A stretch of DNA of 43,804 bases from Bacteroidota bacterium (GTDB lineage: Bacteria; Bacteroidota; Bacteroidia; Cytophagales; Microscillaceae), in contig RDXZ01000023.1 in the NCBI GenBank assembly GCA_004293265.1, positions 1 through 43,804 of the forward strand, read 5' to 3'. Positions 28,160 through 35,571 of this stretch are shown piece by piece (positions within the stretch are counted from its first letter, which is position 1; each line of letters begins with the position of its first letter). The notes beneath the pieces were generated by a model that worked only from the letters and a program-made list of their open reading frames with translations, did not search any database and was not told the DNA's origin. The position numbers were made by a program, and so were the translations under genes.

Positions 28160-29656
28160 CTAATATGCCTGTGCAAACAAAACTCTTCTTTGAGAATCTT
28201 TTCCAGAGAAAATACATTTTCCTTTTTCTTCTTTTGTATCAAAAGCAATACAACGAATAGTGGCTTTGGTGGCTTCTTTGATTTTAAGTTCTGTTTCGGT
28301 TGTGCCGTCCCAATGTGCTGCCACAAAACCGCCTTTTGTTTGTAAAACCTCTTTAAACTCTTCCAAAGAATTTACTTCTGTGATATGAGAATCTCTGTAA
28401 TTTAATGCTTTTTGATAAATATTTGTTTGAATTTGTGCTAATAAATTCTCAATAAATTCAGCAATATTTTCTAATTTTTCGATTGTTTTTGCTCCCTCCT
28501 CCCCTCTCTCTTTATCACGTCTTGCGACTTCAATCGTTCCATTATCAATATCTCTTTCACCCAAAGCCAATCGCACAGGCACGCCACGCAATTCCCAATC
28601 GGCAAATTTGAAGCCCGGACTTAGATTATCACGAGTATCAAATTTGAAACGAATATTTTTTGATTTTAATGCTTTTTGAATTTCGATAACCTTTTGCTCG
28701 ATTTTGGCTAATTGCTCTTCGGTTTTTCCAATAGGAATAATTACGACTTGAAAAGGAGCAATCGCAGGCGGTAACACCAAGCCATTGTCATCAGAATGTG
28801 CCATCACCAACGCACCCATTAGGCGCGTACTCACGCCCCACGAAGTTCCCCAAACATATTCTTGTTGATTTTGCTTATTCAAAAATTTGACATCAAACGC
28901 TTTGGCAAAATTTTGTCCTAAGAAATGCGAAGTTCCTGCTTGCAATGCTTTTCCGTCTTGCATCAAAGCCTCAATACAATAAGTATCTTCTGCTCCTGCA
29001 AATCTTTCATTAGCAGTTTTTACTCCTTTGATAACAGGCAACGCCAAAAAAGTTTCTGCAAAATGTGCATATACATCAAGCATTTGTTTTGTTTCGATAA
29101 CTGCCTCGTCTGCCGTAGCGTGTGCTGTGTGTCCTTCTTGCCACAAAAATTCAGTAGTACGCAAAAATAGACGAGTCCTCATTTCCCAACGCACCACATT
29201 TGCCCATTGGTTAATCAACAAAGGCAAATCTCTGTAAGATTGTATCCAATTTTTGTAGGTATTCCAAATAACCGCCTCAGAAGTTGGTCTGACTATCAAT
29301 TCTTCTTCTAATTTTGATTCACTATCCACCATCAAAGCCCCTTTTTTGTCAGGATTTGCTTTCAAACGATAATGCGTAACCACTGCACACTCTTTGGCGA
29401 AGCCTTCGGCGTGTCCTTCTTCTTTTTCTAAAAAACTTTTTGGGACAAATAAAGGAAAATAAGCGTTGGTATGCCCTGTTTCCTTAAACATTCTGTCTAA
29501 TTCACGTTGCATATTTTCCCAGATTGTGTATCCATAAGGTTTGATAACCATACAACCTTTTACGGCAGAATGTTCAGCCAAATCTGCTTTTTTTACTAAT
29601 TCTTGGTACCATTCTGCGTAATTTTCGCTTCGTTTTGGTAATTTTTTGTCGCTCAT
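28160..29656 (-). CDS. proS: prolyl-tRNA synthetase, archaeal/eukaryotic-like type
   Basis: Charges tRNA-Pro. The 498-residue length without an inserted editing domain, and the N-terminus …[28 protein letters not shown], mark the short (type 3) ProS used by many Bacteroidota and archaea. Class II motifs are visible: motif 2 region with [20 protein letters not shown], and motif 3 [17 protein letters not shown]. Its ATG lies four bases after the stop codon of the HEPN gene, so in this genome this essential gene is read from the defence-like operon unless a promoter is hidden inside the HEPN gene. Confidence 0.94.
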
Positions 29657-29660
29657 ATTG

Positions 29661-30377
29661 TTATGTATTTCTAAATTCTTCTTTCAAATAAGTTTTATTT
29701 TCTATGGCTTTTTTAATTTTTTCAGATATTTGTTCGATTAAATAATTGACTAAAAAAATAAATCTATCGATATAAATTTCTGTTATTTCAGCATCTTGAT
29801 AAGAACTTGTATGAGAAATATCGTTTCTTATATCTACAAGATGCCTTAATTCATCTTCTATAGGATATTTTTGTGGGGTATTTGGAAAAAACTTATTTTT
29901 TATATCTATCGGAATATTATCTACCTGTTCAAATTCAGAAAATTCTATCAATCCTATATTTTTCAACATTAAATTTAAAGGTTTGAATTTTAAATTACTT
30001 TCTGTATTAACAACTATAGGAAGTTCTACAAATTGATTTCCAAATATTTTTTTTAATTTCTCTAAATATTCTAACTTTTTTAATTCCTTTTGTGGATAAT
30101 TTTGAATTTTTATTTCAGTATATTCAGCCACAAAAATCAACAAAGAGTTATTTATTTTATTAGTTTCTATTCCAATCTCATTAAGATATTTTAAATAAAA
30201 CTCAATGACAATCTGAAAAAAACCTTCCCACAAAGAATAAATAATTGGAATAGAATGAAGATAGTAAAATTTTTTATCAACAAGATTAAAACGATAACGA
30301 AATGGAATAGTTTTAATTTTTGTTAATGTATCTTTTTTGTTGGTACACTCATCTTCAATTTTTGTATAAAGTTCCAT
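29661..30377 (-). CDS. HEPN-domain protein, MAE_28990/MAE_18760-like putative RNase
   Basis: A 238-residue, largely helical protein. An early helix [19 protein letters not shown] matches the first HEPN helix of the MAE_28990-type family, and RNDISH (184-189) is the Rx4-6H catalytic motif of HEPN ribonucleases. Such proteins cleave RNA in toxin-antitoxin and abortive-infection systems. The gene starts 3 bp behind the DUF262 gene and ends 4 bp before proS. DUF262-HEPN pairing is known from conflict systems; activity here is inferred. Confidence 0.78.
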
Positions 30378-30380
30378 TTT

Positions 30381-31475
30381 TTAAATGTTACCAAAAATTT
30401 CTTTGGCTATTTTTAATCTATTTTTTACTCTTTGAAATTGATTATTACCTCCTTTGCGTGAGAATTTTAATAAAATTTTGTGTTGTCTAACTTCGTTCCA
30501 TATTTTATCTTCGATAATTTTTATGTCTTTGTTTTCGTATAAATTGATATGTTCTGCAACTCCTATCATAATTGTATCGTACAAGGCAGTAGCAAAACTT
30601 CCGTCTTTTTGTCTAAATATATCTTTTTTTAATGGTAAAAGAATTTCAACTACTTTATTAAAGATATTTTCATGCAAATTATAATTAAAGTTTTGATTTT
30701 CAATAGATTCTCTCATAAACTTACTCATATATTGAGCAATACTTTGGTTTATCTTACCATTATTTTTATAAAGAGATAAAAATCTTAAAATTAATTCTTG
30801 GTCAAATAACTCATTTTTTTGTTTTTCATTCAACCCAATCAAAGTTTGAAAATTTGTATTCTTTGATAATTTTTCCAAAAAATCATTAAAAACAGGTGAA
30901 ATATCTCTATAAATGGCATTTCTAATTTCTTGTGGAGTTAAGTGTGTTCCGCCTGTATTCAATCTATTAAATAACTCAAAACGCATATCATAATCACTAT
31001 TCCAACGAATAATCTCCACTCTACAAACATATCTTTTGATTGTAAAACGTAATTTTTGGGGTAAAGTATCCCATTGCAAATCCTTCAAAGCAGGTAATCT
31101 ATCGCCCTGCCCCAACTTCCATTTATTTTTTTTAACCATTTTTTCATTACCTTTCAACACACCAAAAAAAGATAAAACGGTTGATAATCTTTGTAATCCA
31201 TCTACTACTTCCCAAATTCTTTCATCATTTTCTTTAGGAACTTCTGCTACAAAAATAGGAGGAATAGGAATACCTAATAATAAACTTTCAATGAAACGTG
31301 TTTTTTGGTAATCATTCCAACGAAAATGTCTTTGAAAAGCAGGTCTAATTTCTATTTCTCCCGCTTCATACATACTTATCAGCTCACCAAAAGACATATC
31401 TAACCTATCATTAATAAGTTTATTTTTTTGTTCATTTATCTGGCTATCCAAATCTGTCATTTGTACTGCATTCAT
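30381..31475 (-). CDS. DUF262 (ParB/sulfiredoxin-fold, GmrS-like) protein
   Basis: A 364-residue protein with the DUF262 core: RPAFQRHFRW (44-53), the nucleotide-binding DGLQR motif (92-96) and FNRLNTGGTHLTPQEIRNAI (169-188). DUF262 occurs in the nucleotide-dependent GmrSD restriction enzymes and other phage-defence genes. The DUF1524 HNH domain of GmrD is absent, so the effector is probably the HEPN protein encoded 3 bp downstream. The start at 31475 lies just behind a promoter; a second in-frame ATG at 31460 is also possible. Confidence 0.85.
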   Translation of the reverse strand: MNAVQMTDLDSQINEQKNKLINDRLDMSFGELISMYEAGEIEIRPAFQRHFRWNDYQKTRFIESLLLGIPIPPIFVAEVPKENDERIWEVVDGLQRLSTVLSFFGVLKGNEKMVKKNKWKLGQGDRLPALKDLQWDTLPQKLRFTIKRYVCRVEIIRWNSDYDMRFELFNRLNTGGTHLTPQEIRNAIYRDISPVFNDFLEKLSKNTNFQTLIGLNEKQKNELFDQELILRFLSLYKNNGKINQSIAQYMSKFMRESIENQNFNYNLHENIFNKVVEILLPLKKDIFRQKDGSFATALYDTIMIGVAEHINLYENKDIKIIEDKIWNEVRQHKILLKFSRKGGNNQFQRVKNRLKIAKEIFGNI

Positions 31476-31490
31476 TTTTTTATTTATTTG

Positions 31491-31583
31491 TATTTATTGT
31501 GCAAAAATAATCTTTTTTGATAAAAAACAAAAAAAAGTTTGTTGTTAATTTTTTTTATTTTCATAAAAAATGAAAAAAGTAAA
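31491..31583. repeat. 93-bp direct repeat, copy A
   Basis: Identical over all 93 bases to 35256-35348 (offset 3765). The two copies enclose the histidine kinase/response regulator pair. Copy A lies directly upstream of the DUF262 gene and contains its promoter. Confidence 0.9.
31502..31531 (-). promoter_or_regulatory. promoter of the DUF262-HEPN-proS operon
   Basis: On the minus strand TTTG, 18 nt, TATTTTTG, 27 bp before the DUF262 ATG, inside copy A of the 93-bp repeat. Confidence 0.55.
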
Positions 31584-31674
31584 CCAAAAAAAGTAACTAT
31601 TTAGTTTCCAATTCCCAAGAGGAAAATGAATACTTTAATAATATTGAAAAAACAACCCTATTTTTAGTAATTGT

Positions 31675-32628
31675 TTAAGAGGTAATATTAGCCTGCTCCA
31701 TTGAAGATTTAAACCATATCAACACTTCTAAAAGAGCAAAAAGCATACTTTTATAAGCATAATTATCTACATTTTTAGGATAACTATGAGAATTGATAGC
31801 AGTTACTTCTTGAAAACATTTTATAAGATTACTGATGTGTTCTGGGAAAAGAAAAGGTAAATTAGCGGGAGCAACTTCTATTGTATTGGCACGTCTATCA
31901 ATTATCACCTGCTTTCCGCTTAAATAAAGCCAACACCAGTCTAAATTGACAGATGTTCTATCTCTTCCATAAAAAACATTATCAGGAATAGTATTATTAT
32001 CCGCTTTGATTTTTAAATAAATTGCCTCTATAATTTTTCTCAACGAATTGAATTTATTTTTGATGTCAGTTTTATCGTCTAATTTTTTTAGAATATTCAT
32101 CAAATCAGTTTTCAATTCAATACTTAAAAAACCTCTTTCAAAAATCTCAAAAACATCTTGATATTCTTTTTCTAAGCCAATATCCTGAGCGTTTTCCATT
32201 GATGTTAATAAAAAAATCAATAAATTACTCGAATCTTCCATTTTTCTAAAAAGTTTACCTTTTTGCTTAGCAACGCTTGCATCCATCATTTTAAGTTCTC
32301 TTTCGCCAATATAACCCGTATTGACTACAAAAGGAATATGTCTTTTAGTAATTTGTTCATATTCTTTTAGGGCTTCTAAGGCTTGTGGTAAGAAATTAAA
32401 ATCTTCAACCTCTTGTGTTTCACTGACCAAACATTTTGCATCTAAGATAACTGCGTGAAAATAATTTTCTTTCAAAAACTTCAATCCTTGTGCAAGATTT
32501 AAAGCGTGGATAAATTTAAAAGTAGTATTAAGTTCTACTTCGGCATATTCTATAGCAAAGGTGATAAATTCTTGTGTGTAATCTTTGCTATCATCAATAA
32601 TTAAAATTTGATAAGTCATATTTTCCAT
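31675..32628 (-). CDS. response regulator with a non-DNA-binding helical output region
   Basis: Partner of the histidine kinase encoded 86 bp upstream. Residues 1-150 form a receiver domain: acidic pair D12-D13 in LIIDDSKD, phospho-acceptor D63 in VILDAKC, T104 in VVNTGY and a lysine at 125 or 129 (KGKLFRK). The remaining ~165 residues are helical, with SLRKIIEAIYLKI and a final SMLFALLEVLIWFKSSM helix. No helix-turn-helix, GGDEF or AAA motif is visible. The region recalls HEPN/DUF4145-like domains, but no clear RxxxxH motif is present, so its activity is open. Alternative start at Met4. Confidence 0.75.
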   Translation of the reverse strand: MENMTYQILIIDDSKDYTQEFITFAIEYAEVELNTTFKFIHALNLAQGLKFLKENYFHAVILDAKCLVSETQEVEDFNFLPQALEALKEYEQITKRHIPFVVNTGYIGERELKMMDASVAKQKGKLFRKMEDSSNLLIFLLTSMENAQDIGLEKEYQDVFEIFERGFLSIELKTDLMNILKKLDDKTDIKNKFNSLRKIIEAIYLKIKADNNTIPDNVFYGRDRTSVNLDWCWLYLSGKQVIIDRRANTIEVAPANLPFLFPEHISNLIKCFQEVTAINSHSYPKNVDNYAYKSMLFALLEVLIWFKSSMEQANITS

Positions 32629-32661
32629 GTGAATATTTAAAATTTATAAAAATAAAATTAA

Positions 32662-32693
32662 AATCTAACAAACTTTTTTAAATCTGTTAGATT
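32662..32693 (-). terminator. hairpin between the kinase and regulator genes
   Basis: Perfect 9-bp stem AATCTAACA / TGTTAGATT with a 14-nt loop and T-rich sequence behind it on the minus strand. It could lower read-through from the kinase gene into the regulator gene. Confidence 0.45.
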
Positions 32694-32714
32694 TATTTAA
32701 AAATGATAAAACAC

Positions 32715-35135
32715 TTATTTTTTACCATTTAAAACGGGAAAAGCCATTTTAAAACAAGCTTTGAAACCATTTTGTGTGCCAATATAATCAAATGTACCTT
32801 TGTGTAATTCGACCATTTTATTGATATAATAACCACCCAAACCTGTACCGTTGGATTCTCTTGCACGTTCACCCAAACGAATATAACTTTTGAAATCAAA
32901 ACCTTTCGGCAGACCTTTTCCGTTATCCATATACAATATTTCTAAAGTCGTAGATTTCTGGTTCGAACCTTCTTTGAATGATAATATTCTAAAAATAATT
33001 TTGATAAGATTATTTTCAAAACTATCTTTAAAAGCGTGTTTTTTAGAATTTTCAATCAAATTTCTAAAAACCTCTTCCATAGATTCGATATTCCACTCGA
33101 TTTGTGTATCGATATGATTGCCCTCGATAGCAATATCGATAACAAATGGCTCTTGTAAATAATCTAACTTCACAGCTTCCAAAGACGTTATAATTTCTTT
33201 GACTGATTTATTTTCTAACTCAATCGTATTTTTTTGCAAATAATCCTGTGTTTTTTGCAAGGTTTTGCCCAAATTAAGTATGTTAGTTTTGACTCGATTT
33301 GCAAAATCTCTGATAGTAGAATTGGTAGTTTCTGAAAAAATAGTAAAATCAAAGTGATTTTTTTTCAACAAAAGTAATAAAGTATCATATTGGCTTTTGA
33401 GTACGCCGAATGTATGCGATAAATTATGCGTAATCGTGCCTACTACATCATATTCAGACTCTTTGACTTGCTTTTTGAGCATATCAATATTTTCCAACAA
33501 AGATTTTTCTTTGGCTAAGGTTTCTTTGAAAGTCAAAATAGCCAACTTTTGTTGCCCCAAATCAGGAACAATTATATCTAAATTAAGCACATCATCAGTA
33601 GTAAGTTCGGTTTCACTTCCTGTAAATATCTCTAATTGCAATCTTACAAAAAGAGAATGAAGATGTGTAACCAAATATTCATAATAAACCTTAGACTCAT
33701 CTTTTAGTTTGAGTGCCATAAATCCCACAAAGGCAAAAGGTTGGTCATAATGCGGTAGATAGCAACATTCTAAACTTTGTTTAAGTGTTTCATTATCTTT
33801 TTCAACATTCAAAAAGATAATAGGAGCTTCCACCATCACAAATTCGGTACGTTCAGTAACATATCCATTCACGCGACCCGCAAGCTGTGTTTCATCAAAG
33901 TGTAAATAAAAGTCCTCTCCGTCATCATCTTGTCCAGCAAGAAATAATCCTCTATCATATACGTTACTTTTTAACTTGTCAATATCGATGTTAAAAATAT
34001 CACTGTCTTCATCTGCTTTTCTAAAAGCAAATATATTATCTTCACTATCAGAAATAATAGTACGTACTCGGGTATCAAAAACCCCAAAAATAGATGTATC
34101 ACTATTATTTTTAACAATTACTTCATCGACAACATCTTTAAGCTTCATCACTTGGTTTTTGTTTTGGTCTTTGAGGTCTTTGATGATGCTTTTGTTGGGT
34201 AGAAAATGATAATTATATCTCAAATTATAATTTTCTTCTTTGATAACCTCAAAAGATAATGTTTTAGATTCGACAAAAGAAGAGGAAAGGTTTTGATAAA
34301 GCAAAAAATCATTTTCCTCAAATGCTTGCTCATCAATTCTATAATAGGTAACCGCTGTATTGGGTTCTTTGGATAACTCCGCAAAAATTACTTTGTTATT
34401 TTTTTTGCTCAAACCAATCGTTTTCAAAAGTTTTGCATCTGTGATAAAACGAGCAAAATCTTTATCATTCAAACAACTAACATCATTTACAATATAAAGC
34501 GTACCATTTTCAGTGAGCATATTCAAAATTCTTTGTATATCTGAAATATGGAAAAATTTTTGAATGAGAATAGCAAAATCCATTCTATCGTTATATTCTT
34601 CACAACTTTCAATGATTTCTATTTTAATATTGTCTTTTTTGAACAATATGGCATATATATTTGAAAATATACTTTCTGTGTCCCACCAATTACTACCTAC
34701 AAACGAAAATGTTTGAGTGGGAAAAGCATTTTGCATATCCTCGAAAATATTACCATACCCACAATTTTGTATATAAATATGGGAAATATTTGTAAAGTTG
34801 GGAAGCAGCTTTAAGATTTTTTTATGAAGTTCCTTGATACGTTCTATGTAATAATCATCAATATTATCGTCACGTAAAACATTGAATAGTATTTGTAGAA
34901 AATTGTCAGAAAATGTTACTTTTGTGAAATCAAGATCTTTAAACAAATCTGATATTTCTTCGCCTTCGAACCTTTTTTGGTCTATTGTTGATAAATAGTC
35001 TTCTAATTGCTTTAAATCACAATTATTATATGATATTAGTTTGAATAGTTGTAGGAAGTTATTTAAAGCACCAAATCTAATTTTTCTAAAGTTAGAATTT
35101 ATAATGTCTATAAATGTATCAAGTGTATGTTCCAT
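32715..35135 (-). CDS. histidine kinase fused to methyltransferase-like and HsdS-like regions
   Basis: An 806-residue protein of unusual build. Residues 1-110 are helical. Residues ~115-260 look like a degenerate class I methyltransferase: IYIQNCGYGN (120-129) at the SAM-loop position, and MDFAILIQKFFH (185-196) where active enzymes have NPPY, so catalysis is unlikely. Residues ~305-545 resemble an HsdS target-recognition half: KLKDVVDEV (331-339), YLVTHLHSLFVRLQ (487-500), GSETELTTDDVLNLDIIVP (506-524) and a GQQKLAIL turn into a helix. Residues ~560-640 are the dimerisation helices with candidate phospho-accepting His570 or His574 (THNLSHTFG). The ATPase domain has N-box N692/N696, DNGKGLP (737-743) and GTGLGG (763-768). 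No transmembrane segment is seen, so it senses a cytoplasmic signal, perhaps DNA. Confidence 0.75.
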   Translation of the reverse strand: MEHTLDTFIDIINSNFRKIRFGALNNFLQLFKLISYNNCDLKQLEDYLSTIDQKRFEGEEISDLFKDLDFTKVTFSDNFLQILFNVLRDDNIDDYYIERIKELHKKILKLLPNFTNISHIYIQNCGYGNIFEDMQNAFPTQTFSFVGSNWWDTESIFSNIYAILFKKDNIKIEIIESCEEYNDRMDFAILIQKFFHISDIQRILNMLTENGTLYIVNDVSCLNDKDFARFITDAKLLKTIGLSKKNNKVIFAELSKEPNTAVTYYRIDEQAFEENDFLLYQNLSSSFVESKTLSFEVIKEENYNLRYNYHFLPNKSIIKDLKDQNKNQVMKLKDVVDEVIVKNNSDTSIFGVFDTRVRTIISDSEDNIFAFRKADEDSDIFNIDIDKLKSNVYDRGLFLAGQDDDGEDFYLHFDETQLAGRVNGYVTERTEFVMVEAPIIFLNVEKDNETLKQSLECCYLPHYDQPFAFVGFMALKLKDESKVYYEYLVTHLHSLFVRLQLEIFTGSETELTTDDVLNLDIIVPDLGQQKLAILTFKETLAKEKSLLENIDMLKKQVKESEYDVVGTITHNLSHTFGVLKSQYDTLLLLLKKNHFDFTIFSETTNSTIRDFANRVKTNILNLGKTLQKTQDYLQKNTIELENKSVKEIITSLEAVKLDYLQEPFVIDIAIEGNHIDTQIEWNIESMEEVFRNLIENSKKHAFKDSFENNLIKIIFRILSFKEGSNQKSTTLEILYMDNGKGLPKGFDFKSYIRLGERARESNGTGLGGYYINKMVELHKGTFDYIGTQNGFKACFKMAFPVLNGKK

Positions 35136-35205
35136 AAAAAATAAATTAAGAATGTGAAAAAGACTTTTATTTATTTGTTGTGTGTTACTTTTTAAGGAAC
35201 GAGTG

Positions 35206-35237
35206 CAAAGGTAAAAGGTTATTTTTTAATTTCCAAA
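35206..35237 (-). promoter_or_regulatory. proximal promoter of the kinase gene
   Basis: On the minus strand TTTG, 20 nt, TACCTTTG: a perfect match, about 70 bp before the ATG at 35135. Confidence 0.6.
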
Positions 35238-35255
35238 TATTTTTATATATTTTTT

Positions 35256-35348
35256 TATTTATTGTGCAAAAATAATCTTTTTTGATAAAAAACAAAAAAA
35301 AGTTTGTTGTTAATTTTTTTTATTTTCATAAAAAATGAAAAAAGTAAA
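35256..35348. repeat. 93-bp direct repeat, copy B
   Basis: Identical to 31491-31583. It carries the same promoter-like pair (minus strand TTTG-N18-TATTTTTG at 35267-35296), here about 130 bp upstream of the kinase gene and pointing into it. The rest of the 489-bp gap to the aldolase gene holds a CACGCGGATAATGCGG motif (35390-35405) and the aldolase -7 box. Confidence 0.9.
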
Positions 35349-35571
35349 TCAGACAATTATAAAGTATGGTTTTATATTTACAAAAAAACCACGCGGATAA
35401 TGCGGATTTTACAAATAAAAACGTTTTTTTTAAATGCTTTTTGATGCTTTTATTTTGTTTTATTGCTCAACATTACCAAAAAAAAGACATCTAAAAAATA
35501 TAAAAAAAAGATATATTCACTTTTTTTTCAATTTTTATATCTATAAATTTACAAATCTTAATTTTTTATTT

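Follow-up and report, generated by a model that had tools for sequence, protein, structure and literature searches.

A family of histidine kinases with HsdM-like and HsdS-like sensor parts, linked to type I restriction operons

A histidine kinase gene in a 43,804-nucleotide Bacteroidota contig (RDXZ01000023.1, the whole stretch of DNA analysed here and hereafter called the window) belongs to a family in which the sensor consists of HsdM-like and HsdS-like parts fused to a histidine kinase, and which is linked to type I restriction operons. The reading that we favor, with a probability of roughly 0.5, is that of a sensor shaped like a DNA clamp, recognizing a constant ligand and signalling by phosphorelay, whose input module would derive from a type I methyltransferase (HsdM and one target-recognition domain (TRD) half of HsdS). 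A first-pass annotation of this DNA had proposed a dead methyltransferase and an HsdS-like part joined to a phosphorelay, and this is borne out by the single chains of the relatives and by the regulator gene next to the kinase.

Architecture of the kinase and of its partner

The kinase ORF starts with ATG on the minus strand (32715..35135, as in the first-pass annotation) and encodes 806 aa, predicted to form a soluble protein with an HsdM-like part, half of an HsdS-like part and a DHp/CA kinase. In a Pfam scan, the only match was HATPase_c (2.5e-7, residues 685-800), and neither PAS, GAF nor any other annotated sensor domain was found, in agreement with what had been said of the front part. 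The kinase core occupies residues 564-803 (32727..33446, minus strand), as indicated by profile matches and by a structure comparison in which the model of the protein matches DHp-CA kinases over the same residues. His570 (33426..33428, minus strand), the putative phospho-accepting histidine, is invariant in 46 homologues, and together with Asn692, Asn696, the G1 box (DNGKG) and the G2 box (GTGLGG) it aligns with 45 relatives. Judged by its sequence, the protein therefore has the DHp histidine, the HATPase_c domain and the N, G1 and G2 boxes of a two-component sensor histidine kinase, so that the complete kinase core described earlier stands. In most relatives an N replaces the D of the G1 box, which is kept in the window copy, and this replacement leaves some doubt as to whether the family is active as kinases.

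Residues 1-312 (34200..35135, minus strand) are predicted to form an HsdM-like methyltransferase domain with an N-terminal helical domain, inactive as an enzyme. The AlphaFold2 model of the protein, whose confidence is intermediate (mean pLDDT 69, pTM 0.49) and which, being guided by the alignment of the relatives, offers no independent evidence of homology, showed an HsdM fold over this range when compared with the crystal structure 7vs4_A (VIA, Z 19.7, 307 residues, rmsd 3.8). The fold search suggested by the first-pass annotation thus leads to HsdM crystal structures over residues 1-312, and the best Foldseek match was a type I methyltransferase crystallized with Ocr (E 4.9e-13, 668 columns). 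The profile check for N6_Mtase and Methylase_S, suggested as well, gave a divided answer: hhalign recovered the TRD, while neither HMMER nor hhalign detected the methyltransferase part above shuffles from the window sequence alone (residues 1-330, hhalign 24.2 vs a maximum of 25.7 in 40 shuffles). In a closer relative, L021, the HsdM-like part is significant (hhalign, 6e-7). The HsdM-like identity of residues 1-312 is therefore supported by the collinear relatives, by L021 and by the predicted model.

Both motifs expected of an active HsdM are lost in the window copy. SAM motif I is degenerate (residues 119-131, IYIQNCGYGNIF, 34743..34781, minus strand), with QNCGYG where the family has NPFAGLAS and HsdM has DPxxG. 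The alignment places a degenerate motif IV at residues 188-197 (34545..34574, minus strand), ending in ILIQKFF in place of NPPF/Y, with IQKF at the motif position itself. The first-pass annotation had assigned residues ~115-260 to a methyltransferase fold without NPPY. Both the fold and the absence of NPPY hold, but the domain extends over residues 1-312, and motif I is missing besides.

An HsdS-like TRD is located at about residues 430-545 (33501..33848, minus strand), based on hhalign, PADLOC Specificity_I and the family profile. In the window copy it is weak on its own (PADLOC Specificity_I E=0.007, residues 456-533), and hhalign aligned it to the family profile at 5.3e-8 and to the HsdS proteins of related loci at 3.5e-5, beside 1.9e-13 for the family TRD. 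An HsdS-like segment had been expected at residues ~305-545, of which the HsdS-like character stood and the extent was reduced; residues 343-430 are poorly predicted in the model. The TRD leads into a single continuous helix predicted at residues 526-592 (33360..33560, minus strand; DSSP on the AlphaFold2 model), which would run from an HsdS-type spacer into DHp helix 1 and carries His570. Sequence and model thus suggest the order of HsdS, a TRD and then a spacer helix. Unlike HsdS, with its two hypervariable TRDs, each kinase chain has one TRD, conserved like the other domains.

Directly downstream of the kinase, another ORF of the minus strand begins 86 bp after the kinase ORF and encodes 317 aa (31675..32628; model pLDDT 89.8). 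Its position and the pairing in related loci designate it as the cognate response regulator, and Pfam returned nothing credible for it. Residues 2-151 (32176..32625, minus strand) are modelled as a receiver domain (Z 17.1 to the PmrA receiver), in which D12 and D13 (acidic pair), D63 (phospho-site) and K129 are invariant in 39 regulator homologues. The predicted protein thus combines the (beta-alpha)5 receiver, the acidic pair, the phospho-Asp and the Lys of response regulators. The rest of the chain, residues 157-316 (31681..32160, minus strand), would form a helical output domain with invariant R197 and H281 and a near-invariant E201. This domain showed no significant relative in profile or PDB sequence searches, and the VIA list contained receivers only. 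For an assignment to HEPN/DUF4145, which we also considered, the pattern is only suggestive: the searches gave no significant match, and DUF4145 matched weakly in 1 of the 39 regulator members (0.057).

Relatives and their genomic setting

A search of genome contigs with the window protein alone as query returned no relative. Whole-genome searches revealed relatives with the same plan, 800-940 residues long, in which Pfam finds N6_Mtase, Methylase_S and HATPase_c within single chains (N6_Mtase at 1e-23 to 1e-45, best 1.8e-45; Methylase_S at best 4.1e-11), and viral contigs gave one weak locus only. A profile of 46 members matched, in register, solved structures of HsdM at 55-416 (4e-52), HsdS at 479-568 (1e-16, 3okg/5ybb_D) and histidine kinases at 592-817. 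PADLOC models of type I methyltransferases match 45/46 aligned members, and the model of the type I specificity subunit matches 42/46. The survey of homologues that the first-pass annotation had recommended therefore shows, by Pfam and by the 46-member profile, that the fusion is present throughout the relatives. Two of them (L028 and L050) also carry a HARE-HTH domain at kinase residues 1-45 (about 2e-5 to 4e-5).

Motif I has N for D in nearly all kinases of the family, and motif IV drifts among them (TPPF, HPPF, KPPF, QAPF), with many relatives keeping NPPF/Y, while the neighboring HsdM proteins mostly keep DPxxG and NPPF/Y. The change in motif I and the drift of motif IV are the pattern expected of a sensor and not of an enzyme. 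From their sequences, some of the relatives that retain NPPF/Y may still bind SAM or methylate.

The regulator gene adjoins the kinase gene in 65/67 related loci having a following ORF, and the 2 genes touch or overlap in 34 of these 65 pairs. Among 70 related loci, the stretch examined contained a WYL regulator in 60, hsdM in 55, hsdS in 50 and hsdR in 42, and the complete set in 36, a rate of linkage that describes one branch of the family, as the sample was drawn with patterns favoring an intact NPF(A/T)G motif. The usual order is WYL, kinase, regulator, hsdM, hsdS and hsdR. The window kinase belongs to a more divergent branch (100/100 support), which includes both linked and stand-alone pairs, and where the window copy and L021 have long branches. 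Most carriers belong to the Bacteroidota, while Balneolota, Fibrobacterota and a Leptospiraceae contig contribute one case each. A human-gut phage scaffold of unverified status (MT835483.1; L162:5518-16386) also has a WYL-kinase-regulator-type I operon.

On pFM-G13, a plasmid of Myroides odoratimimus, the genes are annotated as WYL, "N-6 DNA methylase" (the kinase), "hypothetical protein" (the regulator), class I methyltransferase, subunit S and, further on, subunit R. Such labels could explain why the fusion was overlooked, and other database entries may likewise name the kinase gene a DNA methylase.

Variations in gene content were seen as well. In one locus (L048:5857-13384), what comes after a divergent WYL gene, the M/S-kinase and the regulator is not hsdMSR but a pair of genes for an AAA_15 ATPase and a phospholipase-D-like protein. 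In 3 others (L027, L044 and L047), inspection by eye indicated large protein pairs resembling the DUF262/GmrSD type between hsdS and the downstream genes.

What the sensor may read

Closely related loci allowed a comparison of the kinase with the specificity of the system beside it. Between L054 and L055 the kinases are 97% identical, the regulators 98% and the HsdM proteins 94%, whereas the HsdS proteins are 41% identical, with both TRDs replaced and the linkers identical. The same behavior was found in L102/L108 and L063/L066. As the kinase stays the same where the HsdS TRDs are swapped, the sensor does not follow the target of the restriction system. Moreover, kinases that are 70-78% identical stand beside HsdM proteins that are about 25-37% identical. 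Across the family the TRD of the kinase is conserved to the same extent as the remainder of the chain and not hypervariable, with 61% identity at an overall identity of 50-65% and 78% at 65-85%. This absence of change with HsdS suggests that the ligand of the sensor is probably constant.

The first-pass annotation had suggested, as one reading, that this protein informs a response regulator of the sequence or the methylation state of DNA. In its natural form, in which the kinase would read methylation of the target sites of the linked restriction system, this proposal is largely refuted by the swapped HsdS TRDs and by the conservation of the kinase TRD, and in the window there is no hsdMSR beside the pair whose sites it could read. 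We therefore consider it the least probable of all readings, even though sensor and linked methyltransferase are composed of the same parts. What survives of it is a possible sensor with a fixed recognition sequence.

The reading that we favor, a constant ligand held by a clamp, could work as follows. The kinase would dimerize through its DHp helices, bringing together two HsdM-like and two TRD-like domains, which is the set of parts that makes up the clamp of an M2S methyltransferase. A ligand gripped by this clamp would change its conformation, the spacer/DHp helix 526-592 would transmit the change to His570, and the phosphate would pass from His570 to Asp63 of the neighboring regulator, whose helical output domain would then act. 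Type I methyltransferases clamp down on DNA, and the DNA mimics Ocr and ArdA bind to them as well (PMC9613975). The constant ligand might be a fixed DNA sequence or structure, or a DNA-mimicking anti-restriction protein, as opposed to the target of the linked system, which varies. The genes of the pair lie inside a type I restriction operon in most relatives, and the pair would presumably control or report on this operon. We propose tentatively, and with less confidence than the clamp itself, that these proteins are immune sensor kinases, in which a non-catalytic, methyltransferase-shaped clamp would detect either foreign DNA or the DNA-mimicking proteins by which phages counter restriction, and would switch a phosphorelay arming or backing up type I restriction, independently of its sequence specificity.

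Other explanations were weighed against the same data. The M/S-like module may be a bait for DNA-mimic inhibitors of phages or plasmids, of the Ocr and ArdA types, whose binding would set off the phosphorelay and with it a back-up response; the decoy is itself a version of the constant-ligand reading. A conserved, catalytically relaxed M/S module beside a real hsdMSR, a kinase portable across very different HsdM families and the binding of Ocr and ArdA to type I methyltransferases (PMC9613975) would all suit a decoy. The best Foldseek match, a complex with Ocr, would also fit, but it reflects the protein fold and not Ocr, and as the window copy and some others stand without a linked type I system we hold the decoy to be rather unlikely. 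We give somewhat less credit still to a sensor of assembly or stoichiometry, in which the kinase would swap subunits with HsdM, HsdS or HsdR, while the OB-domain regulator and WYL would control the operon, for instance delaying restriction in a new host. The position of the kinase ahead of hsdM, the WYL gene in first place and the S1/CSD-like OB domain of linked regulators, which could bind nucleic acid, are in its favor. However, a specific interface is hard to reconcile with kinases of about 70-78% identity beside HsdM proteins of about 25-37%, and stand-alone pairs exist (the window and L021).

Finally, the N-terminal domains could be debris or a dimerization scaffold, with the kinase answering an unrelated cytoplasmic signal. 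The extremely diverged HsdM-like part of the window copy, on its long branch, could be taken for such a relic, but in most of the family the TRD and M modules are conserved to about the same degree as the kinase, and their collinear order persists in many bacterial families and several phyla, so that this explanation seems very improbable to us.

Comparison with known systems places the family close to several of them. As in the type I M2S methyltransferases of HsdM and HsdS (EcoR124I, EcoKI, PacII), an HsdM-like fold, one TRD and a spacer helix come in the same order; unlike in those enzymes, they are fused to a histidine kinase, motifs I and IV are lost in the window copy, and there is one constant TRD per chain. 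Detocs is a defensive two-component system with DtcA-DtcB-DtcC genes and a nucleosidase effector, whose phosphorelay is thought to answer phage infection. The present family differs from it by the M/S module as sensor, by relatives in type I restriction operons and by a window cassette of two genes, and a general PADLOC scan of the window reported no such family. A link to restriction-modification genes has been described for the two-component-like pairs of HEF_HK (PF19191) and Response_reg_2 (PF19192) (Bellieny-Rabelo 2021, PMC8011034). They resemble our pair in having a soluble kinase-like gene beside a regulator with a divergent receiver, enriched near R-M genes, but are mainly linked to type II systems (C5 methylases), and the text of that paper (PMC8011034) contains none of the words "fused", HsdM and N6_Mtase. 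In Pfam, neither the window kinase nor its regulator matched PF19191 or PF19192 up to E=1. In Helicobacter pylori the two-component system ArsRS controls the type I gene hsdM1, its kinase being a general acid sensor, in contrast to a sensor itself derived from a restriction enzyme (PMC10810217). A fusion of N6_Mtase, Methylase_S and histidine kinase was not described in those open-access papers that the search covered, which is weak evidence as the subscription literature lies mostly outside them.

Restriction enzymes are usually regarded as working with no signalling system of their own. With a widespread WYL-kinase-regulator-hsdMSR operon, a phosphorelay would be built into many type I systems, and the fusion turns the control of restriction, and the possible sensing of phage countermeasures by the cell, into a testable question.

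The window cassette and variants of the regulator

In the window, the kinase and regulator genes are the only content of a cassette at 31536..35520, with blastn boundaries at 31535 and 35521. Both flanks align with a genome of the same genus (G001), up to 31535 and from 35521, at two different places, and roughly 4 kb between them are missing there. The pair thus stands by itself in the window, in a cassette of 4 kb that brings no restriction system with it. The genome has 19 N6_Mtase and 4 Methylase_S matches elsewhere, and none beside the pair.

At 28160-31475 of the window, directly ahead of proS, lie genes for a DUF262 protein (PADLOC NsnA/PD-T4-2_A, 5.8e-60) and a HEPN_MAE_28990 protein, which are kept in the same-genus genome and represent a candidate defense pair in an unusual place. 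We rejected the idea that they form one system with the kinase and regulator: proS-HEPN-DUF262 is intact in G001 without kinase and regulator, where the alignment stops at 31535, and G009 has the DUF262 relative on one contig and the kinase on another.

The output part of the regulator varies within its family. An S1/CSD-like OB domain, which the window regulator does not have, was found in 9/39 regulator members (best 2e-6), several of them longer regulators in restriction-linked loci. The regulator of L053 has a Schlafen/AlbA_2 output domain (6e-15) instead of the helical one, and in that locus (L053:343-6686) the M/S-kinase and this regulator are followed by an AAA protein and McrC, so that here the sensor of this family is joined to a McrBC-type locus. 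Conversely, short regulators of the family of the window regulator accompany a histidine kinase whose front part looks like a P-loop NTPase in L022 (84-2267) and L023 (9119-11661), the front being intact in L023, while the L022 sequence begins inside the gene. The regulator family thus appears to work with different sensors. Lastly, a type III CRISPR locus (L051:7759-12241), with Cas10/Csm1 upstream and a Csx1-like CARF protein downstream, contains a 763-aa HATPase_c protein together with a receiver protein that has the output domain of the window regulator.
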